Source: an uncultured Oscillospiraceae bacterium
Lineage (GTDB): Bacteria > Bacillota > Clostridia > Oscillospirales > Oscillospiraceae
Assembly (NCBI GenBank): GCA_947632175.1
Contig: CANROC010000011.1
Coordinates: 1-64,000, forward strand
Direction: 5' to 3'
DNA length: 64,000 nucleotides
This document shows positions 7,618 through 33,320 of the stretch, one piece after another (the first letter of the stretch is position 1; every line of letters starts with the position of its first letter). The translations under genes and the position numbers were made by a program. The notes beneath the pieces were generated by a model, which was not told the DNA's origin, searched no databases, and saw nothing but the letters and a program-made list of their open reading frames with translations.

Positions 7618-7740
7618 GGGGCCTATCAGACGGTCTACTCTCAAAAGGCCACGGTGGCATATACGAAGTGGACGAACCTTCTCGCGGCAAGACATGAACT
7701 TATAAGCCAAGATGTAGTCATTCCCAAAGCGGAAAAATGA
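7618..7740 (+). pseudogene. 3' fragment of a lytic transglycosylase gene, copy 1
   Basis: The 40 codons in this frame read GAYQTVYSQK then YTKWTNLLAA, matching the C-terminus of the intact enzyme at 5490 (GIYQTGYSQKVMSAFAKWTSILGA region). The stop present in the other copy is AGA here, so the frame runs on to 7740. It marks the left edge of the first permease cassette. Confidence 0.75.
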
Positions 7741-7785
7741 TCTCACAATATTTTGAGTATCAATCTTTCCTTTTCCAAAATTCAG

Positions 7786-7794
7786 TGATATACT
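7786..7794 (+). promoter_or_regulatory. Extended -10 promoter of permease copy 1
   Basis: TGATATACT (extended -10) lies 23 bases before the permease ATG. The same sequence in the same place precedes copies 2 and 3 (TTCAGTGATATACT), so the promoter is part of the duplicated unit. No good -35 is seen, as expected for an extended -10. Confidence 0.55.
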
Positions 7795-7817
7795 ATCAAA
7801 GAAGCGAGGTGTCGGGA

Positions 7818-8624
7818 ATGGAATGGATCTGGTACATGATCGCCGCCTTGGGCGCCGGTATCGGGACCGGGCTCGCGGGGCTGTCCGCCGCCACGGTGAT
7901 GGTGCCGATACTGATTGTGCTGTGTCCCTCCTTCTCCGGGGAGACGGGGGTCTATCAGGCCACGGCCATCGCGCTGGCCTCAGACATACTGGGCTCCGCC
8001 GTCACCACCTGGACATACGCGAAGCACAAAAATATCGACCTCCGGCGCGGATGGATCATGCTGGTGTGCATCCTCGCCATGAGCACCATCGGCAGCTATG
8101 TGGCGTACCTGGCGGGGAACGTGGTACTGGGGAGCTTCACGCTTTTTCTCACCTTCTTCATCGGCATCCGCTTCCTGGTGAAGCCCGACACCAGCCGGGA
8201 GCGCCAGACGGCAAAGGGCCAGAGGCTGGACTGGAAGGGCGTCGCCATCTCCCTCTTTTTTGGGCTGACCATCGGCTTCGGCACGGGCTTCGTGGGCACC
8301 GGCGGCGGGATGATGATGCTGGTGGTCTTCACGGCGTTTTTGGGCATGGAGCTGAAGACGGCGGTGGGCACCAGCACCTTCATCATGACCTTCACGGCCC
8401 TGATCGCCTCCGTCAGCCACATCCTCATCCACCCGGCCATCGTTCTGGAAAAGTGGGATGTGATGATCCTGTGTATCGCCGTGGCCACGATCTCCAGCCT
8501 CCTGTCCGCCCGGTTTGCCAACCGGGTCCCCGCGCGTACCGTGGGACTTGCCACCGGTGGAGTGCTGACGGTCCTCGGCGGAGCCATGCTGGTGCTCAAC
8601 TACTGGAGCGCACTCTTTGGATGA
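7818..8624 (+). CDS. TauE/SafE-family permease, copy 1
   Basis: A 268-residue polytopic membrane protein of the sulfite/organosulfonate exporter family (TSUP). It has two similar halves, each with a glycine-rich motif (GAGIGTGLAGLSAATVMVP near the N-terminus and GFGTGFVGTGGGMMML near residue 155), and 8 or so membrane segments. Members move sulfite, sulfoacetate or related anions; the substrate here is unknown. The ATG at 7818 is chosen because all three copies start there and share the GCGAGGTGTCGG ribosome-binding region. Copies 2 and 3 differ by only a few residues although many synonymous bases differ. Confidence 0.88.
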   Translation: MEWIWYMIAALGAGIGTGLAGLSAATVMVPILIVLCPSFSGETGVYQATAIALASDILGSAVTTWTYAKHKNIDLRRGWIMLVCILAMSTIGSYVAYLAGNVVLGSFTLFLTFFIGIRFLVKPDTSRERQTAKGQRLDWKGVAISLFFGLTIGFGTGFVGTGGGMMMLVVFTAFLGMELKTAVGTSTFIMTFTALIASVSHILIHPAIVLEKWDVMILCIAVATISSLLSARFANRVPARTVGLATGGVLTVLGGAMLVLNYWSALFG

Positions 8625-8739: not shown

Positions 8740-8804
8740 ATTTCTTTATCAAAACCTTCGTGTTATACTGCACATACAGATGCAGAAAATACGGAGGTTT
8801 TGCT

Positions 8805-9716
8805 ATGCCCAAATATGTAGTAGAGATTCCCGGAAATGAATATCCTGGGCCGATATGGGAGCAACGGCTTCGTGTGGCGGCTTATTGTCGGGGCAGTACG
8901 GAGCATGAGGAACAGCAGAACAGTCTGGTGAATCAAATTGAGTTTTATACAGATTACATCCAGCAAAATCCCTATTGGCACTTTTTCGCTGTCTACTACG
9001 ACACTGGTTCCGGTTTGCGGGTAAACAACCGGCCGGGGTATCAGCAATTGCTCAGGGACTGCATGAAAAGAAAAATTGACCTGATAATCGTCAAATCTCT
9101 TAGTCGCTTTGGGCGGGACACTGTGGAGACGATTAAACAAATACGGAGGTTAAAAACTATGAATATTGGCGTTTATATCGAGACTGGCGGCATCAATACT
9201 TTGACCGCCAGCAATCTCATCATCGAACAGTTGGCCGCCATCGACCAGGCGGAGAGCTGGTCAAGGAGCAGGGACATCAAGTTTGGTCTCCGGCAGCGTA
9301 TGATGGAAGGCAAAACAATTCTCAATCATACCCGCTTTCTCGGCTACACCAAAGGCCCGGATGGCGTATTGCAAATTGTCCCGGAAGAGGCGGAGATTGT
9401 AAGAAAGATTTTTGACCTGTACGTTCAGGGGAACGGTGTTCGGAAAATCAAGAAGTACCTGGAATCCCACGGCATCAAGACCGTCACTGGCAAATCCGAG
9501 TGGAGTACTTCCACCATTGATCGGATGCTCAGCAACGAGAAGTATGCTGGAGACGTGTTGATGCAGAAGACGTACACGCCAGATTTTCTGACGGGCAAGA
9601 AAGAAAAGAATTGTGGGCAGGTGGAGAAGTACTTGGTGGAAAACGCTCATGAGCTGATCATCGACAGGATAATGTTTGATAGGGTGCAGGAGATGAAGGG
9701 GCATATCAAAAAATAA
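8805..9716 (+). CDS. Short serine recombinase (no zinc ribbon)
   Basis: 303 residues from an ATG after CGGAGGTTTTGCT. The resolvase domain is complete, with YCRGSTEHEEQ (catalytic serine kept, though Gly replaces the usual Val before it) and SLSRFGRDTVET. The recombinase domain continues to DRVQEMKGHIKK and then stops, where full-length relatives carry a zinc ribbon and coiled coil. A neat terminator follows directly, so this may be a fixed short form rather than recent debris. An extended -10 (TGTTATACT at 8761-8769) gives it its own promoter just downstream of tail repeat R1. Activity is uncertain. Confidence 0.82.
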   Translation: MPKYVVEIPGNEYPGPIWEQRLRVAAYCRGSTEHEEQQNSLVNQIEFYTDYIQQNPYWHFFAVYYDTGSGLRVNNRPGYQQLLRDCMKRKIDLIIVKSLSRFGRDTVETIKQIRRLKTMNIGVYIETGGINTLTASNLIIEQLAAIDQAESWSRSRDIKFGLRQRMMEGKTILNHTRFLGYTKGPDGVLQIVPEEAEIVRKIFDLYVQGNGVRKIKKYLESHGIKTVTGKSEWSTSTIDRMLSNEKYAGDVLMQKTYTPDFLTGKKEKNCGQVEKYLVENAHELIIDRIMFDRVQEMKGHIKK

Positions 9717-9777: not shown

Positions 9778-9981
9778 ATGTCAACGGCTGAGCAGAAAAG
9801 GCGAATCGCCGCCATAAAGACAGCGGATGCCATCAATGCCATTGAGGGCGCACCAATATCTGACTTCGCGAGAAAGCTCTCCAATAGCTGGGCCAGAGGG
9901 GAGCTGACAGACGAGCAGGTGCAGGACGCTCTCTGGCTCTACCATCAGCAGATCGCGGAGCGGGTGAACGGTCATGCCTGA
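9778..9981 (+). CDS. VbhA-like Fic antitoxin
   Basis: A 67-residue helical protein directly before and overlapping a Fic gene by 8 bases. Its middle, ADAINAIEGAPIS followed by a helix ending GELTDEQVQDAL, fits the small class I (VbhA-type) antitoxins that block the ATP site of Fic enzymes with an inhibitory helix containing a Ser/Thr-x3-Glu-Gly/Asn motif. The Glu-Gly pair is present, but the position four before Glu is Ile rather than Ser/Thr. Two-gene architecture is the main support. The start ATG follows GTGAGGTGATCATAG. Confidence 0.75.
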   Translation: MSTAEQKRRIAAIKTADAINAIEGAPISDFARKLSNSWARGELTDEQVQDALWLYHQQIAERVNGHA

Positions 9982-10699
9982 CCCATATCTCTATGACGAT
10001 GTGCCCGTCCTCAAAAACAAGCTGGGCATCAAGGATGACAAGGTCCTGGAGCTGATCGAGGCGGAGCAGTCCCGGCAGAACATGGCCATCCTTTACAAGC
10101 GGGGGTTTGATGATTTCTCTCCTGTAGGGCTGTGCGAGATTCACCGGTTTCTTTTCGGGAAGGTCTACGAGTGGGCCGGACAGTACAGGATCATCAACAT
10201 CGAGAAACGGGAAAAGCTCCTTGCCGGACGCAGCGTGTGGTACAGCAACGATGAGGACATACCGAGGGAGTTGACCGATGCCTTCTGGGACATAAACGCC
10301 CTTAATTGGCCCGTTATGAACCACGATGAGTTTGTGAAAGCTGTGACCGCAGAATTTCCCAAGCTGTGGCGGATACATCCTTTCAGGGAGGGAAACACGC
10401 GGACGGTCGTGATGATGCTCACGTTCTTTGTGGAGCATTACGGCTTTTTTATGGACCAAGAGCTTATGGCCTCCTGCGCCGGGTATGTGAGGGACGCGTT
10501 TGTGATGGCTTCCCTTGACGAGTATTCGGAGTATGAGCATCTGGAAAAGATTTTGTCTGACGCTATATGCGAGGAGCCGATCGAATACTCCGTCGAATCC
10601 TTGGACACGCCGGCCTCTGACGGTGCCGCCAATGATAAATACGCGAAATACCAAAAAGAGAAATACGAATCGCAGCCCCATTATAAGCGCGAGAATTGA
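9974..10699 (+). CDS. Fic-family toxin (probable AMP-transferase)
   Basis: A 241-residue Fic domain protein. The signature HPFREGNTRT (consensus HxFx[D/E]GN[G/K]R) supplies the catalytic histidine and phosphate-binding residues, and the flap region before it (HRFLFGKVYEWAGQYR) is typical. Such enzymes transfer AMP from ATP to target proteins such as gyrase and topoisomerase IV and are kept silent by the small antitoxin encoded just upstream. The Ser/Glu-rich C-terminus after about residue 190 is extra and probably disordered. There is no obvious terminator before tail repeat R2. The pair forms a toxin-antitoxin module within the island. Confidence 0.9.
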   Translation: MPDPYLYDDVPVLKNKLGIKDDKVLELIEAEQSRQNMAILYKRGFDDFSPVGLCEIHRFLFGKVYEWAGQYRIINIEKREKLLAGRSVWYSNDEDIPRELTDAFWDINALNWPVMNHDEFVKAVTAEFPKLWRIHPFREGNTRTVVMMLTFFVEHYGFFMDQELMASCAGYVRDAFVMASLDEYSEYEHLEKILSDAICEEPIEYSVESLDTPASDGAANDKYAKYQKEKYESQPHYKREN

Positions 10700-11020: not shown

Positions 11021-11650
11021 TTGAAACTTCCATATGGATTTTATTTAAATTCCGATGGCGTTGTGTCCATCAATGAAGAAAAGGCAAATATAGTTCGGTT
11101 GATTTATCGGCAGTACCTCTCCGGCATGAGCTTGGGCGGTATCGCCGATTTGCTTTATTCGGAACACATTCCATCACCCAAGGGGAAAGAACGCTGGACA
11201 CAAGCTGTGATCAGCGGTATTCTGTCAAACTCGAAATACATTGATGCCGTCATACCTTTTGATGACTTCTTTGCCGTACAGTTTGAGAAAGGCAAGCGCA
11301 GTCTCAACGACGAATATACGGGCAAGAGAAAGGCCACCCGGTACAGCTCCCAGAACGTACTGAGCGGCCTTTTGGTTTGTGAAGAATGCGGATGCAACTA
11401 CCGGCGAATCACTCGTCCTTCCGGCGAGGTGGTCTGGCGGTGCGCTAACCGTGTGGAGCATGGGAAGCAGTTTTGTAAGAGTTCACCAACTATTACCGAG
11501 CAGGAAGTAATTACTGCTATATGCAGAACACTGAGAACGGCAGAATTTGATGACCAGAAGGTAAGAAATCAAATCGAAAAAATCGTTGTTGGAGAGAGAG
11601 GTACACTGAACATTGAAATAAGGCATCAGATAATGGCGCAATCTTTTTGA
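11021..11650 (+). CDS. Recombinase-like protein without catalytic domain
   Basis: 209 residues from a TTG start after GCAAGGGG. It starts at the recombinase domain (LPYGFYLNSDGVVSINEEKANIVRLIY), has a zinc ribbon (CEECGCNYRR ... CANRVEHGKQFC) and ends in a short helical and beta region. The resolvase domain with its serine is absent. It repeats the design of the protein at 2934 but is not a copy of it. The AT-rich 180 bases upstream, with two TATAAGTA repeats, show no trace of a resolvase domain. It could be a remnant or a stand-alone DNA-binding factor. Confidence 0.7.
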   Translation: MKLPYGFYLNSDGVVSINEEKANIVRLIYRQYLSGMSLGGIADLLYSEHIPSPKGKERWTQAVISGILSNSKYIDAVIPFDDFFAVQFEKGKRSLNDEYTGKRKATRYSSQNVLSGLLVCEECGCNYRRITRPSGEVVWRCANRVEHGKQFCKSSPTITEQEVITAICRTLRTAEFDDQKVRNQIEKIVVGERGTLNIEIRHQIMAQSF

Positions 11651-15325: not shown

Positions 15326-15389
15326 TGAACGGCGGTCTTTCCTTTTCCGAAATTCAGTGATATACTGTCAAAAGAGCGAGGTGTCGGGA

Positions 15390-16196
15390 ATGGAATGGGT
15401 CTGGTACATGATCGCCGCCTTGGGCGCCGGGATTGGGACCGGGCTTGCGGGGCTGTCCGCAGCCACAGTGATGGTGCCGATTTTGATCGTGCTGTGTCCC
15501 TCCTTCTCCGGAGAAACGGGGGTCTACCAGGCCACGGCCATCGCGCTGGCCTCGGACATTCTGGGCTCCGCCGTCACTACCTGGACATACGCGAAGCACA
15601 AAAACATCGACCTCCGGCGCGGATGGATCATGCTGGTGTGCATCCTCGCCATGAGCACCGTGGGCAGCTATGTGGCGTACCTGGCGGGGAACGTGGTGCT
15701 GGGGAGCTTCACGCTTTTTCTCACCTTCTTCATCGGTATTCGCTTCCTTGTAAAGCCCGACACCGGCCGGGAGCGCCAGGCGGCAAAGGGCCAGAGGCTG
15801 GACTGGAAGGGCGTAGCCATCTCCCTCTTTTTCGGGCTGACCATCGGCTTCGGTACGGGCTTCGTGGGCACCGGCGGCGGGATGATGATGCTGGTGGTCT
15901 TCACGGCGTTTTTGGGCATGGAGCTGAAGACGGCGGTGGGCACCAGCACCTTCATCATGACCTTCACGGCCCTGATCGCCTCCGTCAGCCACATCCTCAT
16001 CCACCCGGCCATCGTGCTGGAAAAGTGGGATGTGATGATCCTGTGCATCGCCATAGCCACGATCTCCAGCCTCCTGTCCGCCCGGTTTGCCAACCGGGTC
16101 CCCGCGCGTACCGTGGGACTTGCCACCGGCGCCGTGCTGACGGTCCTCGGCGGAGCGATGCTGGTGCTCAACTACTGGAGCGCGCTCTTTGGCTGA
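15390..16196 (+). CDS. TauE/SafE-family permease, copy 2
   Basis: 268 residues, same length and start as copy 1. Differences are conservative and few (STV for STI, GRERQA for SRERQT, AIA for AVA, GAV for GGV), while many third-codon positions differ. That pattern fits selection for the protein after duplication. The duplicated glycine-rich motifs of the two halves are intact. It is the only gene of its module, bracketed by the 184-base repeats. Substrate is unknown; the family exports sulfite or organosulfonates. Confidence 0.87.
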   Translation: MEWVWYMIAALGAGIGTGLAGLSAATVMVPILIVLCPSFSGETGVYQATAIALASDILGSAVTTWTYAKHKNIDLRRGWIMLVCILAMSTVGSYVAYLAGNVVLGSFTLFLTFFIGIRFLVKPDTGRERQAAKGQRLDWKGVAISLFFGLTIGFGTGFVGTGGGMMMLVVFTAFLGMELKTAVGTSTFIMTFTALIASVSHILIHPAIVLEKWDVMILCIAIATISSLLSARFANRVPARTVGLATGAVLTVLGGAMLVLNYWSALFG

Positions 16197-21543: not shown

Positions 21544-21586
21544 GAGGTCATCCCTAAAACGAAAGGATGACCTCACAATTTTTTGA
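21544..21586 (+). terminator. Hairpin upstream of permease copy 3
   Basis: GAGGTCATCC with GGATGACCTC, followed by ACAATTTTTTG; the same element as at 15285. Confidence 0.7.
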
Positions 21587-21647
21587 ACGTCTATCTTTCC
21601 TTTCCCAAAATTCAGTGATATACTATCAAAGAAGCGAGGTGTCGGAA

Positions 21648-22454
21648 ATGGAATGGATCTGGTACATGATCGCCGCCTTGGGAGCCGGGATTGGGACCGG
21701 GCTTGCGGGGCTGTCCGCAGCCACAGTGATGGTGCCGATTTTGATCGTGCTGTGTCCCTCCTTCTCCGGGGAAACGGGGGTCTACCAGGCCACGGCCATC
21801 GCGCTGGCCTCGGACATCCTGGGCTCCGCAGTCACCACCTGGACATATGCGAAGCATAAGAACATTGACCTCCGGCGCGGATGGATCATGCTGGTTTGCA
21901 TCCTTGCCATGAGCACCGTGGGCAGCTACGTGGCGTACCTGGCGGGGAACGTGGTGCTGGGGAGCTTCACGCTTTTTCTCACCTTCTTCATCGGTATTCG
22001 CTTCCTTGTAAAGCCCGACACCGGCCGGGAGCGCCAGGCGGCAAAGGGCCAGAGGCTGGACTGGAAGGGCGTAGCCATCTCCCTCTTTTTCGGGCTGACC
22101 ATCGGCTTCGGTACGGGCTTCGTGGGCACCGGCGGCGGGATGATGATGCTGGTGGTCTTCACGGCGTTTTTGGGCATGGAGCTGAAGACGGCGGTGGGTA
22201 CCAGCACCTTCATAATGACCTTCACGGCCCTGATAGCTTCCGTCAGCCACATCCTCATCCACCCGGCCATCGTACTGGAAAAGTGGGATGTGATGCTCCT
22301 GTGCATCGCTGTGGCCACAATCTCCAGCCTCATATCCGCACGGTTTGCCAACCGGGTCCCCGCACGCACCGTGGGTCTTGCCACCGGCGCAGTGCTGACG
22401 GTCCTCGGCGGAGCAATGTTGGTGCTCAACTACTGGAGCGCGCTCTTTGGCTGA
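21648..22454 (+). CDS. TauE/SafE-family permease, copy 3
   Basis: 268 residues, the third near-identical copy. It is closer to copy 2 than to copy 1 in the middle (STVGSY, TGRERQA) and has its own changes near the end (MLLCIAV, SLISARF). The promoter TGATATACT, ribosome-binding region and tail repeat are kept. It follows the LysR-linked operon and forms the last plus-strand gene before the minus-strand giant module. It is probably a sulfite or organosulfonate exporter, substrate unproven. Confidence 0.87.
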   Translation: MEWIWYMIAALGAGIGTGLAGLSAATVMVPILIVLCPSFSGETGVYQATAIALASDILGSAVTTWTYAKHKNIDLRRGWIMLVCILAMSTVGSYVAYLAGNVVLGSFTLFLTFFIGIRFLVKPDTGRERQAAKGQRLDWKGVAISLFFGLTIGFGTGFVGTGGGMMMLVVFTAFLGMELKTAVGTSTFIMTFTALIASVSHILIHPAIVLEKWDVMLLCIAVATISSLISARFANRVPARTVGLATGAVLTVLGGAMLVLNYWSALFG

Positions 22455-22682: not shown

Positions 22683-25600
22683 TCATGTTCGGCCGCGAGG
22701 AGGGCAACTGTCTGCTTTGGTTTTCGGATTTTCAGCTCCGAACCGATAATACTGGAAATCGTCCCCGGCGCCAGATGCAGTTCCGGTGGCACTTGTGGGT
22801 GTTTCTTCCTCTACGCTCATGTTCAGAAGAACATATCCATGTATTCCTAACCGCTCCGGGTCGTGAAGCCTGTCGGCCACAAGGAAGTGGACGATTTCTC
22901 CTTTGTCGTTCTTTTTGGAGGTTTCCGCGTACGCATGGATATGACCGGCAAGGAAGAGATCGATGGTCTCATCGGTTTCCTTTTCAATTTCACCCATTAA
23001 GTCTTTGAAGTTTCGATCATCGTATTTGCTCATCATCAGGCTCTCGTTGACTTCAAAAATAAGCTTGGAGATCTGCTCATCGCAAAGAGCGCTGATTTTC
23101 TTACTCAAATCCTGTCTGTCCGTAAGATGATTATCCTCAAGCCATTTTTCATAGCTCTTGATTTGCAAATAGAGGTCGTTCTTCCGCATATTCTCCACAG
23201 CCTTTTTGATATCGCCCTTGGCGGTATCTTTCAGGCGGGTATAATACATGTCGCTTTCATACTGCTTGGACTCGTGACCGGCCTCCAGATCTTGCATGGC
23301 ATGATCCAGCGCCCTGATCTGCTTGAGGAAATCGGTACGGGCTGTGTAAAGCTCCTCTTCCACGCCGCTTATGGAGGAAACGGGGGCTGCGGGAGTGGCT
23401 GCGGCCGCTGAAAGATCGCCGGAGAGCCCAATTTCCACGCGATATTGGAGCTCCCTCCGCAGGGCAGCGCAGAAGCAGTCTGAAAGCATATTGATGGGGC
23501 AGTTTTTGGCGAGTACGGGATCCCATTGCCATCCGGGCATGTAGGAGTAATTATCAATAAAATACGATGGCTCATACTCCATAGAGTAATGAGCGGCGCA
23601 GATACGGAAGGGGCGGCGCAGGTACGGAACACGTTCCGGATCGTCCGGATCGCCCTTGCTGACGGCAACGACTCTCTGCGTCTTGTCCCTCCACGCTTTT
23701 CTCCCGACCAGCTCGATCACCTTATCTTTGTCTACTCCGATCTTATTTGTCCGGCGCGTGGTCGCTGTCCCGGAGCAATTCAGGGACAGCACGCGAACGC
23801 CCAGATTGCGGTAATTCCGCACCTCGTTGAGGTCGTTTAGGAGCAGCTCATCGATGGGCGCATCCAGGTATCGGACCATAAAATCTATAAAATACGCAAA
23901 TTTGGACATGGTGCTGCTGTCCATCTCCACCGGCATGGCGGAGATCAAAGCTCTGCGCTGGAGCGATGCTTTGTACTGATTCATGGAGGCATAATCATGG
24001 TTACCGGTGGTTATGATGATGCGCCGGCGCCAATCGTGCGGAAGATATCCGTCCTCATCCTTCCACAGTTCGAAAACGATGGCGTTCAACAGCTTCATAG
24101 CTCGCCTGTAATTTTTCTCCATCTGCGGAGCGTTTGCTTCTCTGCCGTCCACCACATCTCCCGTGATGATCAAAAGGTCCACCTTCGTGAGCCCCAGCGA
24201 GTCGCGGATACAGCTCCTGACCTTTTCGCAAAGGTCATCGACCTCATCTTTTATATGCAGGTCTGAAATATGTATCGCGGCAGGATGCCCGGCATTCTGC
24301 AAGTCAAAGGGCCGAATATAGGCGCAGTCAAACCGGAAATTGATCAAAACAGTATAGTCACGGGAAAGGATCAGCTGCAGGCTCTCACGCATGAACAAAA
24401 TATCCCGTGACTTGCGCATCGCGGTCTGGATATTTGCGCTTCTGTCTGTGCCAAACACATGTTCCTCCGAAAGAGACTGAAGCACCAGATGGAAACGGTT
24501 CGAATTTGTTTTGTCCCCTTTAAAGGTGAGGCTGAGGACTAAATAGTCACACTGATCCTTTTCCCCTTGTATGATGGACACATTCGGGATAAGCGTTGTT
24601 ACCCTGTACTTCTCGTTGGGATCGCCCTGTTCGCCGTTGGAGCGGATATATCGCAGCAGCCGGTCAATGTCATGTGGAGTCAGGATCTTGTCGAGCAGCT
24701 TTTTGCAGTAGCCGGACTGAGTAAATATTTCCGGATAGTTTCCGGTTGACTCATAGGCGATATAACACATCTGAAAACCTGTCAGACCGCAGATCGTCCT
24801 GCATAGGTCCTCGTACTGATAAGGCAGCTCGTCGATCGTATGATTTTCGACCAGGTAATTAATGCGCCTGAAGTATTGAAGCATATAGGTAAGCGGATGA
24901 ATGCCCTCCTCTTCCTTGCTGGTAGCGGCCGCGCTTCCTGTACTTAGATGCCAAAAACGGCAGAAGTTTCCCAAAATGTTCTGGTACAGGATGTTACGCG
25001 TTTCGCCATCGCCGTCCAGGTTGGAGTAGCAGCCGGCCAGGACTTTAACGACTTCTCTGTTCAGGAGGCGCATGTATTGCGGGTATTTGTCCGCAGGCCG
25101 GAAGCTGCGCTGCATTGCCCAAAAATCCGATGAAATGCTCTTTTCCAGGTCGCGCATGCCGGTGTACAGCATTTGGGTGTTTTCCAGATATATGTATCTC
25201 GCAAACAGCACCATGTTTTTCCGGACCGGGAGCGGCATGGAGCTGGTGATCTGGCTCTCCAGCCTCAGAGGCGTTTCTGTAAGCAGCAGACACGGAACGG
25301 CGTCGTCTGATAGCATGGTTGCGGATTTCGCGGATTTGAGGTACCGAATGACCATCCTGTCAGAGGTGGGAAGCGCCATATGGGCGGCAAGGACCGCACG
25401 GTCCGAAGTCCCGTCCGGCGCGGTGAAATAGGTGTTAAGATACTGCTCATAGGCTGTTGCGATCGATCTCACGCCGCCGGCGTTGATCTCGGCGCTGATC
25501 TGCAGGTCGGCCATCCGGTGGATCAAGATCATCTGCATATGATACTGAAGCAATACGCAGAGTTTCCCGCAATGAAATTCCCTGTACTCATTCGGGCTGC

Positions 25601-28600
25601 ATATCGGTTTCAGCGCGGATATGATCTTCTCCCAATCCGCACTTTCCTCCATGAGGTCACTGATCCTGGCATCAGAAGCCTTCCCTTCGCGCAGGTTCTC
25701 CATGACTGCCAGCAAATCGTCCAGGATCCCGGTAATCGCCCGCCTGAACTCATAATAATTCACAAGCTGTTCACGGGATGCGACCTTTATGTAGGAAATG
25801 ATCCACTCGGCGTTTCTGGCTAAGCAGAAGCGAAGGCTTTCGGCCTTTGCCTCCGAATTGGCCACGGCTTTCATGTCGGCCTCAACGTATCGAAGAGGTT
25901 CGGCCATCAGCCTGACCAGATCTGTTCGATAGTCCGCTTTGCACGGATCTCCTGTGCTTATCCGGTAAACAAGCTCATAGGTCTTCTGCATGCTCAAAAG
26001 CCGCATGTAGCTGCGGACCCCGATCAGCTCTCTGTGTACAAGGCTCAGCACCTCTTGCTGAAATCTCTCCGCATCTGCCGGGCTGTCAAAATCCCGGACA
26101 TAGTTGACAACCTCCCGAATTGTGAGTTTCGCGCAGTTGTTGAGATAATTCTGTCTGGACTGATAAAGCGTCTCAGGATCGGCGGACAGATTTGGATGCT
26201 GAAATTTATATGAGTATGCCTTAAAAAACCGAATAAACTTCTCCGCCACATCTACCGCGGCGTCATACTCCTGCCGCTTCAAATTGTCGGCCGTTGTGCC
26301 GCGGACGGCGGCCATGCGCTCATAGCGCTCCTGGGCCTCCTCCTGGACAAAACTGAAGAGGCCGGTGTTCTTGCCGTGCTCCGGGACATTGACATAAAGC
26401 CATTGGACAAGCCACGCGAAGTAAGACGAGTGGTCAAGAATGGCCTCGTCCAGATCCCTGTCATATTCCTCTCTGGAGCGTTTGCGGTGCTTCTCCTTGA
26501 GCCTCTCAAACTCACTGCTGAGCTGCTCGGTAGAGGACCGTTTTTCCAGCAGATCGTACTTTTTTGCCGTCCGGCACGCCGGGCAGCGGTCGTTTTCCGT
26601 GTTATACGAGGGGATCGCGAGATGAATATACGCGAAGAGATTTTTCTCCGGCTCATGGACGAAGAAATTCGCTGAATCATAGGAGCTGCGGTTGACCAGC
26701 AGGAAAAGCCGGTCAAACAGGAACACGTTTCCATAGGGAATGCCGGAATGTTCGAGCAGCATCTGCACCAGCAGCCGCGCGCGATTCAGGATATCTCCGG
26801 TGACAACCGAGCTGTCCGCAAAATGGACCAGGAAGCGGGAATGGGGATCGGACCGCTTTACTCTGCGGTAATCCTCCGCGATAAAGCTGAATTTTGCGCG
26901 CATCTCTTCCCGGTAGATATCAGTGAGGTTGAGGCGCAGGACTCTGACCTGTCCCCGGAAAACGATGTCTATCACCGCTTTAACGAACCCGGAATTGGCA
27001 AACTGCATCGGCACCACTAAAACATGGTAAGCATCTACCTGGGCAGGCCACTCCTGAAGCAGATGACCGATCTCCCGGCGATTATCGCGGAAAAGGTTTT
27101 CAAAGTCAATGTAAAACTGAAAATGGTTGTTGCCGGAATAGATGTGGGAATAGTGTACATTCTGAAAGAGACTGCGAATACGTTCCCGATTTGCCTTTGC
27201 GCCGCCGGTTTTACGCACCAGCCGTTCAAATCCGTTAAAGCGCTGTTCGTGGAGAGTGAAGATGGCATTGGGCTCCGTCTCGGAATGGCGTACATCTATG
27301 ATCGGGCTCAGGGACTTCCCCGTTGCATTGCAGATAGGACACGTATCCGGCGCATACCATTTTATATTCACCGGGATCAGGTACTTCACCCTGCATTCAG
27401 ACAGCGAGGAATTTTCGGGACGTGGTACAACAGAGTGATCCGCGCTATTAAAGCGCTCCCAAAAGCGCGCAGAGGTATCGCTCAGATTTCCGTCCGAATT
27501 GAACAGGTCCTTGTTGATCAGGACCAGGCAGAAATTGCGCGAGGGGACATTGAGGACAGCTTCACCCAGCTCTCTTTCGTTTTGGAGCTTCTGAGACCGC
27601 GAGCTCCTGCTTTGGGCTTTGCAGTCCCTCTCTGCCGCCTCTCGCTTTTCCTGAAGGAACTTACGGGCGCGGTTATGCAGCTTATATACTGTCGAAAGCG
27701 TAGTGCCCACAGGTAAGACTGTCACGATTTGGATGTTCGCAAAATCAGCGTAGGTGAAAGCATCGGGATCGAAATACGGCTTAAAATACACCTCTCCATC
27801 GCTGGGCCCGTCATAGACGATCGCGGAATATACCTTTGCTTTTTCAAGCGCATTCTCCAACCAGAACTTGATTTGGAGGAAAAGAGTCGAGGAATATTTT
27901 TCATATCCCAACAGCAACAGCGAGGAGTCCTTATTTTTCCTGTCATCACGGTACAGGAGCTCTGTAACGATCAAATAGGCAAAATACGCGATATTGCCCA
28001 TGTTGTGGAAAAGCAGCTCCGCTTCGCAAAATTGCTTCAAATGGAGCTTGGAGCCAAGGCGGATATGGGTGTTGCGAAGCATACAGCCGTATTCATTTGA
28101 CTGCATGTCCGTTTCAAGCACTGCGGAAATACGTCTGACAAACCAATTGTCTCCCCAGGGGACATCCTCCAACGAAGCTGTTCCGGCGCCATCGGGAACG
28201 CGGGCCGGTAAAAACAGATCGAACGGGAACAACTCGATAGGATGTATCTCGGGAGAAGCTTGCGCGCCATTATACGTAAGATAATTTAATAACGGAAGAT
28301 ACTCCAGAGTGTATTCCGAGTGCTGGTACGCGAAAAGGGCCGCGCCTCTTTGCGCGTCTGACAAAACGCGGCCGGAAAGGATCGTCTGTGTACACGGAAT
28401 GCCCGCTCTCCATTCGGAGCACAGCGCGATCTGCACGTTGGTCATATCCGGTTGCACTCCGTCAATGTAAAATACGGAATACCACCGTATAAATTCGTGC
28501 AGCGTATCCATGTCCGGAAAGAGCAGCGCGATACGCAGGGGGATGTTTTTCTCCGTTAATTGGACATATGCGATCTGCCTGAACAGGGCCTTGGCCAGGA

Positions 28601-30281
28601 GCTCGACCCCGTGAGATCTAAGGTGCCTCAAATTCAGCAGGATGACCGCATCAGACAGGCTTCCGGCGCAGCTCGACCGGAGCTGGTCGTTCAGCCTCTT
28701 TTGGATCTTGATGATGTCATCGATCTTGGAGGAAAACGCCACCTCGTCAAAGAGCGTCTTATAATCAACAAAAATCAGGCGTTTGCGCGGCGGGAGGACC
28801 TTCGGTCCGAAATAGCTCAACTGGTTTGGCCCATCTCCCGTCGTATCGGGAAGAGCGGGCCAGGCATCGCTTATCGGGATGAGCGCATTCCACTCTGTGA
28901 CGTATGAGTCCGCCGGCTCATATTCATCTCCATCGAATGAAAGCTTATTCTCGTTGTTATAAACAAGCGTCCTTCCGCTGCCGTCCGGCGTGCGCCCCAT
29001 AAGGTAGCCGTCATTGACGCTGACAATGCGTTGGAGCAAACGCAATCCGTAATGAACGGTCACATCCTCAAGGTGGGAATCGAGCGGCGCTTCCCTTGGC
29101 GGAAGATGAAAAAGGTCGTGCAGCTGCCCGGCATACTGCCGATGCGCGGATAATTCCTTATTCGAAAGACTTCCCTCCAGCAGGATCGCGTCCTTGTTGA
29201 ACTGGGCGTCCTTGGAGGCGTATAACTCGATGGCTTCCAAAAAGACACGTTCATTATATTGGCGGATCATCCCGATTCGCCCATTTTCGCCCATTGCGCT
29301 GTCAAGAACAAAAAATTCAAAATAAAACCGGTAATCCCGATTGAAGATATTGTCTCTGTCAGTCGATGTCCCGTTCCTTTTTACTTTGGTAAAGCAGGGC
29401 TTATATTTCTCATAAAGCTCTATACGGTTTTTAGACTCCTGGGGAAAATTGGACATCGTTGTGTCGCGCCCCGCCCGATGGACTCGAATGCCGAACCATG
29501 CCCGATGTCCCTGAGAGTGCAGGCACGCGTTTTCGATAAGCTGATACAACGCCTCTCCGTATGTGATCGCGTCTATTCGGCTCTTCTTGAGCAAGGCCTC
29601 ATTGATCTGAGGCTTGTCATTCACGCTGTAAAGGGCCTTTTCTTTGATAAGTTCCAAAAGGAGATATGTCCAGATGATTTTCGCCAATACGGTCATACTG
29701 TCCAAATGGGCCTGGATATAGTCGTTGACATGCCCGCGAAGAGCGCTTTTTGTGGCTTCGCTGAATCCAAATTGCTGGTCCCCCAGGTATTCCGCGTTTT
29801 CTACGGCGTGTACCAGCATATTCGCCATATGAAAATACTCCGGCATCTCGTCTGCCGGGCCTGAATAACGGCTGGTATTCAAAACCTGATAGCTCTTATA
29901 GGCGTCCGGATTTAACGCGATGGAACACAGCGGGAAGATCCGGCTTTTCGCCCAGTCGTAACCCGAAAACTGTATTCCATTTACATTGATCTGAATATAC
30001 TTTGTCTGCTCCAATTGGGATAAGAAGGCAGCCACACGCCCGTACTCATCGCTGTCGATCTTCCCATTTTTCTCCCTAAGAAAGATATCCAGGGTAAGCT
30101 TTTGCTCAGGACTGATGCGTTGTGTGCGATACAGGTAATCGGCAAAGGGAAAGAAGTATCTGAGCTGGGTGACCTCGCTGGACGCATCGTTCAGCTTGAC
30201 CCGGATCCTTAAATCTTTGTCCTCGGGAGGCGTATTATATAATGCCTGCCAGGCGACTCTATCAAGCCCATTTAAATCCAT
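22683..30281 (-). CDS. Giant GHKL ATPase / PRTase-like / metallophosphoesterase protein
   Basis: 2532 residues, ATG after AAGGAGAATATACAT. Residues 1-235 are helical and unassigned. A GHKL ATPase fold follows: N-box YQLIENACLHS (about 247-256), a G1-like VLDSAMGENG (about 325-334), and a G2-like HYGLRLLQRIV with GR/GRT end (about 410-440). Two phosphoribosyltransferase-like regions are suggested by VLPVGTTLST (about 855-864) and HFADSSVVTGDIL (about 1153-1165), followed by CPIC and CPAC pairs. A long helical region leads to a calcineurin-like phosphoesterase at 2003-2532: SDLH, GDVVDG, GNHDY, AAHYS and AGHIH are all present, with a coiled-coil insert before GHIH. It is probably the sensor or signal enzyme of a two-gene system. 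Confidence 0.75.
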   Translation of the reverse strand: MDLNGLDRVAWQALYNTPPEDKDLRIRVKLNDASSEVTQLRYFFPFADYLYRTQRISPEQKLTLDIFLREKNGKIDSDEYGRVAAFLSQLEQTKYIQINVNGIQFSGYDWAKSRIFPLCSIALNPDAYKSYQVLNTSRYSGPADEMPEYFHMANMLVHAVENAEYLGDQQFGFSEATKSALRGHVNDYIQAHLDSMTVLAKIIWTYLLLELIKEKALYSVNDKPQINEALLKKSRIDAITYGEALYQLIENACLHSQGHRAWFGIRVHRAGRDTTMSNFPQESKNRIELYEKYKPCFTKVKRNGTSTDRDNIFNRDYRFYFEFFVLDSAMGENGRIGMIRQYNERVFLEAIELYASKDAQFNKDAILLEGSLSNKELSAHRQYAGQLHDLFHLPPREAPLDSHLEDVTVHYGLRLLQRIVSVNDGYLMGRTPDGSGRTLVYNNENKLSFDGDEYEPADSYVTEWNALIPISDAWPALPDTTGDGPNQLSYFGPKVLPPRKRLIFVDYKTLFDEVAFSSKIDDIIKIQKRLNDQLRSSCAGSLSDAVILLNLRHLRSHGVELLAKALFRQIAYVQLTEKNIPLRIALLFPDMDTLHEFIRWYSVFYIDGVQPDMTNVQIALCSEWRAGIPCTQTILSGRVLSDAQRGAALFAYQHSEYTLEYLPLLNYLTYNGAQASPEIHPIELFPFDLFLPARVPDGAGTASLEDVPWGDNWFVRRISAVLETDMQSNEYGCMLRNTHIRLGSKLHLKQFCEAELLFHNMGNIAYFAYLIVTELLYRDDRKNKDSSLLLLGYEKYSSTLFLQIKFWLENALEKAKVYSAIVYDGPSDGEVYFKPYFDPDAFTYADFANIQIVTVLPVGTTLSTVYKLHNRARKFLQEKREAAERDCKAQSRSSRSQKLQNERELGEAVLNVPSRNFCLVLINKDLFNSDGNLSDTSARFWERFNSADHSVVPRPENSSLSECRVKYLIPVNIKWYAPDTCPICNATGKSLSPIIDVRHSETEPNAIFTLHEQRFNGFERLVRKTGGAKANRERIRSLFQNVHYSHIYSGNNHFQFYIDFENLFRDNRREIGHLLQEWPAQVDAYHVLVVPMQFANSGFVKAVIDIVFRGQVRVLRLNLTDIYREEMRAKFSFIAEDYRRVKRSDPHSRFLVHFADSSVVTGDILNRARLLVQMLLEHSGIPYGNVFLFDRLFLLVNRSSYDSANFFVHEPEKNLFAYIHLAIPSYNTENDRCPACRTAKKYDLLEKRSSTEQLSSEFERLKEKHRKRSREEYDRDLDEAILDHSSYFAWLVQWLYVNVPEHGKNTGLFSFVQEEAQERYERMAAVRGTTADNLKRQEYDAAVDVAEKFIRFFKAYSYKFQHPNLSADPETLYQSRQNYLNNCAKLTIREVVNYVRDFDSPADAERFQQEVLSLVHRELIGVRSYMRLLSMQKTYELVYRISTGDPCKADYRTDLVRLMAEPLRYVEADMKAVANSEAKAESLRFCLARNAEWIISYIKVASREQLVNYYEFRRAITGILDDLLAVMENLREGKASDARISDLMEESADWEKIISALKPICSPNEYREFHCGKLCVLLQYHMQMILIHRMADLQISAEINAGGVRSIATAYEQYLNTYFTAPDGTSDRAVLAAHMALPTSDRMVIRYLKSAKSATMLSDDAVPCLLLTETPLRLESQITSSMPLPVRKNMVLFARYIYLENTQMLYTGMRDLEKSISSDFWAMQRSFRPADKYPQYMRLLNREVVKVLAGCYSNLDGDGETRNILYQNILGNFCRFWHLSTGSAAATSKEEEGIHPLTYMLQYFRRINYLVENHTIDELPYQYEDLCRTICGLTGFQMCYIAYESTGNYPEIFTQSGYCKKLLDKILTPHDIDRLLRYIRSNGEQGDPNEKYRVTTLIPNVSIIQGEKDQCDYLVLSLTFKGDKTNSNRFHLVLQSLSEEHVFGTDRSANIQTAMRKSRDILFMRESLQLILSRDYTVLINFRFDCAYIRPFDLQNAGHPAAIHISDLHIKDEVDDLCEKVRSCIRDSLGLTKVDLLIITGDVVDGREANAPQMEKNYRRAMKLLNAIVFELWKDEDGYLPHDWRRRIIITTGNHDYASMNQYKASLQRRALISAMPVEMDSSTMSKFAYFIDFMVRYLDAPIDELLLNDLNEVRNYRNLGVRVLSLNCSGTATTRRTNKIGVDKDKVIELVGRKAWRDKTQRVVAVSKGDPDDPERVPYLRRPFRICAAHYSMEYEPSYFIDNYSYMPGWQWDPVLAKNCPINMLSDCFCAALRRELQYRVEIGLSGDLSAAAATPAAPVSSISGVEEELYTARTDFLKQIRALDHAMQDLEAGHESKQYESDMYYTRLKDTAKGDIKKAVENMRKNDLYLQIKSYEKWLEDNHLTDRQDLSKKISALCDEQISKLIFEVNESLMMSKYDDRNFKDLMGEIEKETDETIDLFLAGHIHAYAETSKKNDKGEIVHFLVADRLHDPERLGIHGYVLLNMSVEEETPTSATGTASGAGDDFQYYRFGAENPKTKADSCPPRGRT

Positions 30282-30298
30282 ATGTATATTCTCCTTTT

Positions 30299-31228
30299 TT
30301 ATCCGTTGCCGGTATCGGGGCCTTTTTTCTCTCCGGGGCCGGCGAAATTGGAGGCGGCCCTGAAATCGAAGATCGCAATGGATGAGATCGTCTCAAGCTC
30401 TTTGGCGCTCTTCGCAAAAAACCAGCCGTTCTTCCAATCGCCACTGTTATAGATCAGCCTGTAAAGATACTCGGGAATCGCGCTTCCGGTGTGCCGGATC
30501 CCCCAGTTTCCCGCGGGAGCGTCACGCGTTTCCCGTGACATATAAAATCGATCGATCGCCGAAAAGATCTCTGCGGCTTTTTCGTCATCGAATTTCTGCT
30601 GAGGCTGTGCCCGGCCCTTATTATGGTCGAACAGCGCGTGCTGGCTGTTCCAAATAAAGTCGCATACGGATAAGCCAAGAGAGCCGTTCAGCAGGTCCAC
30701 ATCGGATACTTTCTGGATAGTGCTGTTGAAATACGTCTCTTTTACACTCTCCGCAGAGGCAAGATATATGCCGTTGACGCAGTTTTCGCACCAAAGTACG
30801 ATTTGTTTGTCAAGATAGGGGAAGCTCTGCAGCTGCATCTGTGGGACCGGCCTGGAGCATGAATAGTATAAGTACAGCGGCATGGCTGACCTGATTTTGG
30901 CAGCCTTGATCAGCAGATCGATCTGATATCCGTTCCTGTTCTTGTATACGATAGACGGGCGAACGTTCGTGTTGGCTTTCAAATATTTTGCCTGCACCAA
31001 AAAGCGATACGCGCATAAGACATCTTTCTCGTTCGTCAGCGCCCACCATTCCATATCGGCGCCGATATGCGCCTCCTCCTGCCGTGTCAGGGGTATGAAA
31101 CGGACCCTCTCCGACAGGCCCGACATGCTTAAAAGCCCGAACTGAAGCCAATCTGTAATAGATTCTTCTTTCACCCATGGGTTTTTGCTCAGCCAGCGAT
31201 ATATTTCCTCGGAAATGCAGTGAAACAC
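30299..31228 (-). CDS. DUF6615-like, nuclease-fold candidate partner of the giant protein
   Basis: 309 residues from a GTG start after AAGGTGG, ending 17 bases before the giant gene, which it precedes in the operon. The start EESITDWLQFGLL, then EEAHIGADMEWW and LVQAKYLK, and later YQIDLLIKAAK and PLYLYYSC, fit the DUF6615 pattern. The order GAD-x-E-W ... Q-A-K resembles a PD-(D/E)xK nuclease core (Asp, then Gln-x-Lys). Together with the giant ATPase/phosphoesterase it could be the effector of a defence system. Both the family name and nuclease reading are pattern-based. Confidence 0.6.
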   Translation of the reverse strand: MFHCISEEIYRWLSKNPWVKEESITDWLQFGLLSMSGLSERVRFIPLTRQEEAHIGADMEWWALTNEKDVLCAYRFLVQAKYLKANTNVRPSIVYKNRNGYQIDLLIKAAKIRSAMPLYLYYSCSRPVPQMQLQSFPYLDKQIVLWCENCVNGIYLASAESVKETYFNSTIQKVSDVDLLNGSLGLSVCDFIWNSQHALFDHNKGRAQPQQKFDDEKAAEIFSAIDRFYMSRETRDAPAGNWGIRHTGSAIPEYLYRLIYNSGDWKNGWFFAKSAKELETISSIAIFDFRAASNFAGPGEKKGPDTGNG

Positions 31229-31635: not shown

Positions 31636-32235
31636 GTGGTGTATTCGATTGGGTACTCAGGCTTTACGCCGGAGGAGTTTGTCCGGGCGCTTTTGGAAAA
31701 CGGCGTGACGGCGCTGGTGGATGTGCGGTCATCGCCCTATTCGGCCTACCACACGGAGTATGACCGGGAGACGCTGGCCCGGACGCTGAAAGAGAGCGGA
31801 ATACTTTACCGCAACTACGCCAGGGAGTTTGGGGCGAGGCAGGAGAACAGGAGCTTTTTAAGCCCCGGAGGGTATCTGGACTTTGAAAAATTCTCGGCCT
31901 CGGAGCAGTTCAGGGAGGGCGTGAGCAAGATCGAGGCGGGTATGGAGCGGGGGTATGTTTTCTGCTTCATGTGCGCGGAGACGGACCCCATGACCTGCCA
32001 CCGGGCCATACTTGTGACCAGGGCCTTTTCAAGGCTTGGATACGAGGTCATACACCTCATGCCCGGGAACGTCCGGGAGACACAGCGGGAGATGGAAAGG
32101 CGGATGGTGGAAAAGCTCTTTCCTGACAGAGAGCAGCTGTCGCTTTTCGGGGACAAGTCGGAAGAGGACTGGGTGGAGGAGGCTTACGCCCGGCAAAACA
32201 GGGCCATCGGATTCAGACCGGGGGAGGGCATGTGA
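31636..32235 (+). CDS. DUF488 family protein 1
   Basis: 199 residues from a GTG after GGGGGCGAGAG. The family start MVYSIGYSGFTPEEFVRAL, LVDVRSSPYS and the C-terminal FMCAETDPMTCHRAIL (conserved Cys with Cys-His) are all present; the tail EKLFPDREQLSLFG is common to the long DUF488 type. The biochemical role of DUF488 is unproven. Its stop overlaps the next start (TGATG). It forms an operon with a second DUF488 gene and a dual-OB protein. Confidence 0.88.
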   Translation: MVYSIGYSGFTPEEFVRALLENGVTALVDVRSSPYSAYHTEYDRETLARTLKESGILYRNYAREFGARQENRSFLSPGGYLDFEKFSASEQFREGVSKIEAGMERGYVFCFMCAETDPMTCHRAILVTRAFSRLGYEVIHLMPGNVRETQREMERRMVEKLFPDREQLSLFGDKSEEDWVEEAYARQNRAIGFRPGEGM

Positions 32236-32675
32236 TGGAGCTTTACACCATGGGTTTTACGCAAAAATCGGCGGAGAGATTTTTCGGACTCATAAGCGAA
32301 AATAAGATAGAGATGCTGGTAGACGTCAGGCTCAACAACCGCTCACAGCTGGCGGGCTTTACGAAAGGAGAGGATCTGGCCTTCTTCCTTGACAAGCTCT
32401 GCGGGTGCGCGTATTGCCACCGGGAGGATATGGCCCCGACGAAGGATATCCTGGACGCTTATAAAAAGGGGACCATCGGCTGGGAGGAGTACGAGGAGCT
32501 GTTCATTCCCCTCATGAAAAGCCGCGGGAGCGTGGAGAGATTTTTAGAGGAGCTGGGGGAATATGACCGGGTACTCCTTTTGTGCAGTGAGCCCACGCCG
32601 GAAAAATGCCACCGGAGGCTTTTGGCGGAGCTCATCGCCGAGGCAGGGGAGAATATCGAAATAAAGCACATCTGA
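32235..32675 (+). CDS. DUF488 family protein 2
   Basis: 146 residues; the ATG at 32235 overlaps the preceding stop, so translation is coupled (a GTG three bases earlier is the alternative). MELYTMGFTQKSAERFF, LVDVRLNNRSQLAGF and LLLCSEPTPEKCHRRLL match DUF488 and parallel the first protein, but it is the shorter subtype and only distantly similar. Two different DUF488 paralogues in one operon suggest a heteromer or two successive steps. Function unknown. Confidence 0.87.
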   Translation: MELYTMGFTQKSAERFFGLISENKIEMLVDVRLNNRSQLAGFTKGEDLAFFLDKLCGCAYCHREDMAPTKDILDAYKKGTIGWEEYEELFIPLMKSRGSVERFLEELGEYDRVLLLCSEPTPEKCHRRLLAELIAEAGENIEIKHI

Positions 32676-32690
32676 GAGAGGGAATAGCGC

Positions 32691-33320
32691 ATGGTGGGCA
32701 GGACTGTAGAAGCGCTGCTGCTGTCGAGCTCGGCAAAACACAAAGGAAAGTGCGTAGCCGGAGTGAGCCTTGACACGGGGGAGCTTATAAGATTTGTCTC
32801 CGAGGACAGGGGAACCATGGGGGCGCTGACTTACGGGGACATGAGGTGTGCCGATGGGCGCATCTGCGGGCCCTGCGATGTTGTGATCGCGCCGGTGATC
32901 GGACCCGTGCCCACGGCCCACCAGCCGGAAAACTGGCTCATTGACAGGCGGCGCTATTGGAAACGGTTAAAGACCTTGACGCCGGGGGAGACAGCTGAGC
33001 TCATACCGGTGACGAGACCCCGCATGATATTCGATACGTGGGGCGGTTTCCTTACGGAGGAGCTTTACCCCAACAGGTCCCTGGAGCTTATTGAGGCGGA
33101 AGAGCTTGTCTTTGCGAAAGAGCCGGGGAAGAAGTCCAAGGTCACATTTACATACAACGGGCGCGAGTACACGAAAATGTCCATGACCGACAGAGACTAT
33201 TACTCCGCTCAGAACGGCGACAGGATAGGCAGGGCCGTACTGCTCATGAGCCTTCCGGAGGACGATTACAACGGGAAGTATTTTAAGTTCGTGGCGAAAA
33301 TATTTCAGGTGGGAGAGTGA
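32691..33320 (+). CDS. Dual OB-domain (DuOB-like) protein
   Basis: 209 residues, 15 bases after the second DUF488 gene. Predicted mainly beta with two OB-like halves; the pattern LLSSSAKHKGKCVAGVSLDTGELIRFVS and the later ENWLIDRRRYW fit the dual-OB proteins often encoded with DUF488 genes. OB folds suggest binding of nucleic acid or nucleotide. The operon ends here, followed by a strong hairpin. The family name is a recollection from operon context and pattern and should be treated as moderate. Confidence 0.65.
   Translation: MVGRTVEALLLSSSAKHKGKCVAGVSLDTGELIRFVSEDRGTMGALTYGDMRCADGRICGPCDVVIAPVIGPVPTAHQPENWLIDRRRYWKRLKTLTPGETAELIPVTRPRMIFDTWGGFLTEELYPNRSLELIEAEELVFAKEPGKKSKVTFTYNGREYTKMSMTDRDYYSAQNGDRIGRAVLLMSLPEDDYNGKYFKFVAKIFQVGE

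Follow-up and report, generated by a model that had tools for sequence, protein, structure and literature searches.

A very large protein with GHKL, phosphoribosyltransferase-like and phosphoesterase domains and its nuclease-like partner: a candidate phage-defence pair in an uncultured Oscillospiraceae bacterium

We analysed a stretch of 64,000 nucleotides from an uncultured Oscillospiraceae bacterium (GenBank assembly GCA_947632175.1, contig CANROC010000011.1, positions 1 to 64,000), here called the window, for a two-gene system made of a very large protein, the giant, and a smaller partner. An earlier note, written from the letters of the window, had proposed that the giant combines a GHKL ATPase, two phosphoribosyltransferase (PRTase)-like loops and a calcineurin phosphoesterase, and that it senses and makes or removes a nucleotide signal while the partner cuts nucleic acid. 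The two open reading frames (ORFs) of 2,532 and 309 residues lie where that note had placed them. Both are intact, and the partner gene is upstream of the giant gene on the same strand, with a 17-base gap. The features of the pair are as follows.

22683-30281, minus strand: giant gene, 2,532 amino acids, single ORF (ORF reading)
30299-31228, minus strand: partner gene, 309 amino acids, DUF6615 (PF20320), probable PD-(D/E)xK-type nuclease (Pfam and model)
30986-31057, minus strand: putative active-site stretch of the partner, D58..Q79-x-K81, with E21 upstream of the stretch (partner-family alignment)
28842-29714, minus strand: divergent GHKL (Bergerat-type) ATPase domain, predicted, residues ~190-480 (hhalign, conservation, predicted secondary structure)
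27336-28163, minus strand: predicted PRTase-fold domain 1, residues ~707-982, loop LPVGTTLST without an acidic pair (predicted structure)
27330-27341, minus strand: first CxxC pair, C981 and C984 (kept in 124 of 124 giants)
26652-27179, minus strand: PRTase-like domain 2, residues ~1035-1210, with a phosphoribosyl pyrophosphate (PRPP)-type loop D1156-G1162 in which S1157 is the second-acid position (conservation, profile, secondary-structure order)
26574-26585, minus strand: second CxxC pair, C1233 and C1236 (kept in 124 of 124 giants)
25182-25229, minus strand: putative module boundary, residues ~1685-1700 (two-ORF splits in the relatives L005, L008 and sister L028)
22932-24275, minus strand: calcineurin-like phosphoesterase, residues 2003-2450, metal ligands present (Pfam, profile, conservation)

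Two protein searches, the first of which scored the 7,989 candidates with the most shared words, gave 59 proteins (the window's own included) and 65 proteins, making 124 giants. Those with GNH[DE] within their last 700 residues were called phosphoesterase-type (56) and the other 68 sister-type. A FastTree phylogeny of the core (115 proteins, 903 columns; 9 of the 124 dropped by length) separated 54 phosphoesterase-type from 61 sister-type giants exactly, with supports of 1.0 and 0.95. At least 2,350 amino acids are present in 50 of the 56 phosphoesterase-type giants, counting the window's own. The closest relative, also from an uncultured Oscillospiraceae (L004), carries both genes in identical order, and its giant is 76% identical to that of the window. 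Using the Nei-Gojobori method in our own script on this one pair of loci, we calculated the ratio of nonsynonymous to synonymous change (dN/dS), which was 0.147 in the giant gene and 0.29 in the partner gene. Thus, both genes appear to be under maintenance, the partner less strictly. In L005, L008 and sister L028 the giant breaks into two ORFs at a place read from the alignment columns around residues 1685-1700, and in sister L009 it breaks near residue 674; these breaks suggest module borders near residues ~1690 and 674. The L005 split is one in-frame TAA, and the L005 giant could be a broken gene.

To characterize the N-terminal region, we compared a profile of the giants (111 of 124 N-terminal regions, 13 dropped by length) with HATPase_c domains of the window's own genome (16 of 29 matches used, 13 not used). 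The hhalign match had an E value of 4.4e-5 and a probability of 69% (global, 80%), compared to 0.27 for the reversed control. The N-, D- and G-boxes lined up in order in this alignment (N-box E250-N251, D327, H410-x-G412 and a strand with T462/P469), which bears out the GHKL signature proposed earlier. Pfam gave no HATPase_c match for the window giant and matched one of 10 relatives (E 0.017), and the profile of the region had no match among PDB sequences. We predict that the N-terminal domain is a divergent GHKL ATPase that would bind ATP. A STAS domain ahead of it, a guess by eye prompted by CapK, gained no support; by sequence, the profiles of residues ~14-150 and ~484-672 both matched no relevant solved structure.

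Structure was predicted for 1,141 of the 2,532 residues of the giant. The model of PRTase domain 1 had a mean predicted local distance difference test score (pLDDT) of 81, and its Foldseek and VIA matches were to PRTases, mostly over residues ~707-982. The hhalign comparison with own-genome PRTases (5 of 7 matches used, 2 not used) gave 0.67, that is, no support from the sequence profile. The assignment of domain 1, which is predicted to carry a type I PRTase fold, therefore rests on predicted structure. For domain 2, we compared the loop with the real PRPP loops of these own-genome PRTases, loop on loop, and found an E value of 1.5e-3 and a probability of 17% (reversed, 0.2). Since the comparison with kinases also gives 0.018, the margin is modest and this domain appears less well supported than the GHKL domain. 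Domain 2 was not among the VIA matches listed, which domain 1 fills. The only PRTase family to match it at all was PRTase-CE (Pfam PF24390), in one of 10 members with a nonsignificant E value of 0.35. By sequence, the profiles of both regions failed to match any relevant solved structure. The two profiles matched each other only at a CxxC, which gives no support to a tandem duplication. Of the two PRTase-like loops proposed in the earlier note, then, one lies in a domain upheld by predicted structure, the other has a match at the level of the loop, and each domain is followed by its conserved cysteine pair.

The PRPP loop of domain 2 differs between the branches. D1156 is kept in 124 of 124 giants. 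All 68 sister giants have D at position 1157, versus at most 2 of the 56 phosphoesterase-type giants, where the residue is T (29), N (14), S (6), V (3) or A (2); the remaining two are not tabulated at this position, and at least one of them (P0056) has D. With S1157, the window giant lacks the two adjacent acids that mark a catalytic PRTase loop, and the loop of domain 1 has no acid pair in the giant sequences displayed. Because the second acid is missing in the phosphoesterase branch, its PRTase-like domain probably binds a nucleotide rather than making one, and the reading shifts from a maker of signals to a sensor of ligands. The core tree is unrooted and hence gives no polarity for the state of the second acid.

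At the C terminus, Pfam Metallophos matched residues 2003-2121 with an E value of 9.7e-9. D2007, H2009, D2042, N2094, H2095 and H2231 are kept in all 56 phosphoesterase-type giants (own included), and H2447 and H2449 in 55, with one gap. The profile match and the D-x-H, GD, GNH, H and GH-x-H metal motifs place the domain among calcineurin-like phosphoesterases, as had been claimed. In the profile search, the first solved relatives were the SbcD/Mre11 exonucleases (E 0.0027, over ~50 residues). Unlike these nearest solved relatives, the phosphoesterase of the window forms the last part of a much larger protein. SbcD/Mre11 nucleases have a capping domain and pair with the SbcC/Rad50 ABC ATPase; the profile match covered only part of the domain, and no SbcC-like gene was found among the neighbours scanned. 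The NCBIfam model DS8_antiphage (NF053861) has the calcineurin-like domain in common with the giant (E 2.5e-6, with the best stretch at 2004-2119), but the score of 25.5 bits falls below the cut-off of 790, and the GHKL and PRTase parts of the giant lie outside the match. When the whole giant was scanned with Pfam and NCBIfam, the phosphoesterase alone was recognised, and no family model run covers the rest. Matches to 4-alpha-glucanotransferase, rubredoxin, DnaB, DNA polymerase II small subunit and GerR were all under their cut-offs and were discarded.

The partner is a member of DUF6615 (PF20320; E 5.6e-10, residues 20-124, 39.6 bits against a cut-off of 23.8), a family to which Pfam assigns no function and which was not named in the open-licence literature searched. 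Its model (pLDDT 69, predicted template modelling score 0.75) gave VIA matches to RecU, Hjc, SwaI and PvuII. The best Foldseek hit was no better than E 0.1, and the partner profile had no relevant solved structure by sequence. The GAD..QAK pattern pointed out earlier is present, with D58 in 9 of 10 partner-family proteins (own included) and Q79 and K81 in all 10, fitting a D..(E/Q)-x-K arrangement. The partner is probably a PD-(D/E)xK-type nuclease. The L004 partner (L004:4566-5480) has DSH in place of the GAD of the window and so lacks the putative catalytic D58.

We examined the pairing at six phosphoesterase-type and four sister loci. DUF6615 adjoins the giant in 2 of the 6 phosphoesterase-type loci, which are close relatives; within 10 giant-holding genomes searched it occurred only in the two with the adjacent pair, and within 250 family genomes only in the window's own. 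The DUF6615 found here thus sits with the giant, and the giant does without it elsewhere. Near phosphoesterase-type giants without DUF6615 we observed ORFs of the endonuclease/exonuclease/phosphatase family, at 8252-9019 in L008 (Pfam E 0.0055, under the cut-off) and at 18077-19009 in L005 (8.7e-9). They are not clearly related to each other (blastp E 1.8), and we treat an alternative partner as a lead only.

The sister branch was examined for its own output. A profile of 71 sister C termini (67 of the second group and four loci) matched own-genome histidine-kinase ATPase domains with an E value of 3.5e-8 and a probability of 95% (reversed, 0.33), while the phosphoesterase-type C termini gave 0.68. 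Sister giants are thus predicted to end in a kinase-type GHKL domain, whose profile shows a weak mutual match (0.011) to the N-terminal GHKL profile. At all four sister loci read (L009, L027, L028 and L031), the giant is followed by an ORF of 186-267 amino acids and then by a DUF2971-type ORF of 332-409 amino acids; Pfam placed DUF2971 above the cut-off in L009 and L027 and below it in L031, and L028 was linked by blastp only. The idea, formed by eye, that the small protein is a receiver domain gained no support from profile comparison with 10 real receivers, where the four proteins jointly gave 0.021 (reversed, 0.49) and singly 0.0047 (0.37) for L028, 0.39 (0.45) for L031, 0.34 (0.033) for L009 and 0.37 (0.16) for L027. 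The sister branch resembles Detocs in setting a kinase-type GHKL domain and the genes downstream of it in a context of defence; no receiver was confirmed in the sister branch, and Detocs is not known to have a tandem PRTase-like core.

Giants of either branch are rare and patchily distributed. They were found in 7 of 400 family, 4 of 394 order and 2 of 398 phylum genomes (window's own included; the samples overlap). A scan of viral contigs and searches of plasmids and phages, the phages queried with the window giant only, found no relative. PADLOC 2.0.0 had no family for the giant or the partner at E values up to 5.

Three genes at 31636-33320 lie divergent to the giant operon, two of the DUF488 family and one with a dual-OB product; they match the PADLOC candidates PDC-M45B, PDC-M45C and PDC-M45A. 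These are the nearest defence-like genes, on the side opposite to the Fic and NACHT genes. The 3' side of the giant holds TauE, flavodoxin-type and hydrolase genes, followed by NACHT-pentapeptide, KilA-N, recombinase pieces and Fic. The pair had been placed in a mobile island beside a VbhA-Fic pair and a NACHT gene. Those genes exist, but "beside" is loose, as the Fic gene ends ~12 kb and the NACHT gene ~7.8 kb past the 3' end of the giant with genes between. A mobile island that holds the giant gains no support, since the recombinase pieces (8760-9716 and 11021-11650) flank the Fic gene and not the giant. The Fic gene is the PADLOC candidate PDC-S04; at 9778-10699 a small ORF, which we presume to resemble VbhA, overlaps it, and the Fic motif reads HPFREGNT, the usual form being HPFxxGNG. 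A TauE/SafE permease gene occurs three times (7737-8624, 15357-16196 and 21567-22454; 93-96% DNA identity, spaced 7.6 and 6.3 kb), copies that may have arisen around the Fic-NACHT stretch by duplication or by repeated insertion. Among the relatives, sister L009 is adjoined by brxA, brxB and brxC, by an AbiH-like gene and by a PDC-M54A match, a large ATPase-like gene. At L007, a PDC-S01 match lies ~5 kb beyond the giant. By eye, most of what flanks L004, L005 (among the genes listed), L006 and L008 looked ordinary, so not all loci resemble defence islands.

Our preferred explanation, with a probability of roughly 0.42, is that the pair is a phage-defence system in which an ATP-gated nucleotide sensor drives two nucleases. 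The ligand of the two PRTase-like domains would be a nucleotide, PRPP or a related compound, one that changes when the cell is infected. PurR and PyrR are regulatory proteins that likewise bind ligands through PRTase-like domains. Ligand binding, together with ATP binding by the GHKL domain, would alter the conformation of the giant and release the phosphoesterase and the partner, which would then break down DNA or RNA. Sister giants would use the same core to relay its state via the C-terminal GHKL domain to the DUF2971-type protein. The folds and motifs, the branch tree, the match between PRPP-loop state and output, the SbcD/Mre11 likeness, the neighbours, the patchiness and dN/dS values below 0.3 are all consistent with this explanation. 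It keeps the sensing and the nuclease-like output proposed in the earlier note and gives up the making of a nucleotide signal.

That signal-based proposal, in which the PRTase-like domains make a nucleotide that activates the partner and the phosphoesterase removes it, draws support from the universal D1156, from the full DD loop in every sister giant and from the Ter system, for which the accessible part of one source describes nucleotide-making PRTases and phosphoesterases paired with ligand-binding proteins (PMC7824862). However, the phosphoesterase branch is nearly devoid of the second acid, the first loop offers no acid pair in the sequences displayed, synthesis and removal would share one chain, and Pfam finds no ligand-binding domain in the partner, so we consider it rather unlikely. 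The Ter system likewise joins two PRTases with phosphoesterases in a context of conflict; its phosphoesterases are HAD-fold, whereas that of the giant is calcineurin-like, and a GHKL giant is absent from the portions of its descriptions available to us (PMC7824862, PMC5512222). An unlikely alternative is a GHKL clamp with an Mre11-like nuclease that processes invading or damaged DNA in the manner of MutL or SbcCD, with PRTase-like domains that are structural or bind nucleic acid. The SbcD/Mre11 relationship, the N-terminal position of the GHKL domain, the Hjc/RecU-like fold matches of the partner and the binding of single-stranded RNA reported for classic PRTases (PMC5512222, in the part at hand) would fit it. 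Against it, no SbcC-like gene was seen among the neighbours scanned, and sister giants have a kinase-type GHKL domain in place of the phosphoesterase, which fits signalling better.

A signalling role of another kind would be a switch like CapK/VapK, where a GHKL kinase activated by DNA damage phosphorylates a target to free an effector and the phosphoesterase resets it. CapK/VapK are described, in the part of the source seen, as GHKL kinases that single-stranded DNA switches on and that govern immune or toxin genes (PMC13373217). This precedent, the GHKL domain, the nearby immune-type genes and the kinase-type domain of the sister branch make such a switch conceivable, yet we recognised no STAS protein, the N-terminal region matched no solved structure, and the small sister protein was not confirmed as a receiver; on balance the idea seems improbable. 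The tie of a GHKL domain to immune or toxin output is as we propose for the giant, but the proteins covered there are HTH (helix-turn-helix)-STAS-GHKL or STAS-GHKL, with no PRTase or phosphoesterase described for them (PMC13373217, as far as seen). Ordinary regulation or stress housekeeping unrelated to phage would suit the TauE, flavodoxin-type and hydrolase genes on the 3' side, and a defence role is itself our deduction. The patchy distribution and the candidate defence genes near the giant in the window and in L009 make so plain a role very improbable.

Taken together, the architecture is real and has no name in the resources searched: its core lies outside PADLOC and NCBIfam, and we recognised no description of a GHKL-PRTase-calcineurin arrangement in the open-licence literature, in agreement with the earlier remark that no named system with this domain order was known to its author. 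We tentatively suggest that the GHKL and tandem PRTase-like CxxC core could represent a new class of immune sensor of ~2,000-2,500 residues that reads a change in nucleotides or PRPP and has interchangeable outputs. These might be an Mre11-like phosphoesterase with a PD-(D/E)xK partner or a built-in kinase with a DUF2971-type protein, the PRTase-like domains possibly being catalytically silent in the phosphoesterase branch. If this is true, metabolic-enzyme folds make up the sensing part in a family of very large immune sensors, and the detection of phage by watching nucleotide metabolism (PRPP, nucleobases and nucleotides) becomes a testable idea. The two branches would then be a natural experiment, one core with two outputs, in which the state of the PRPP loop tracks the output.

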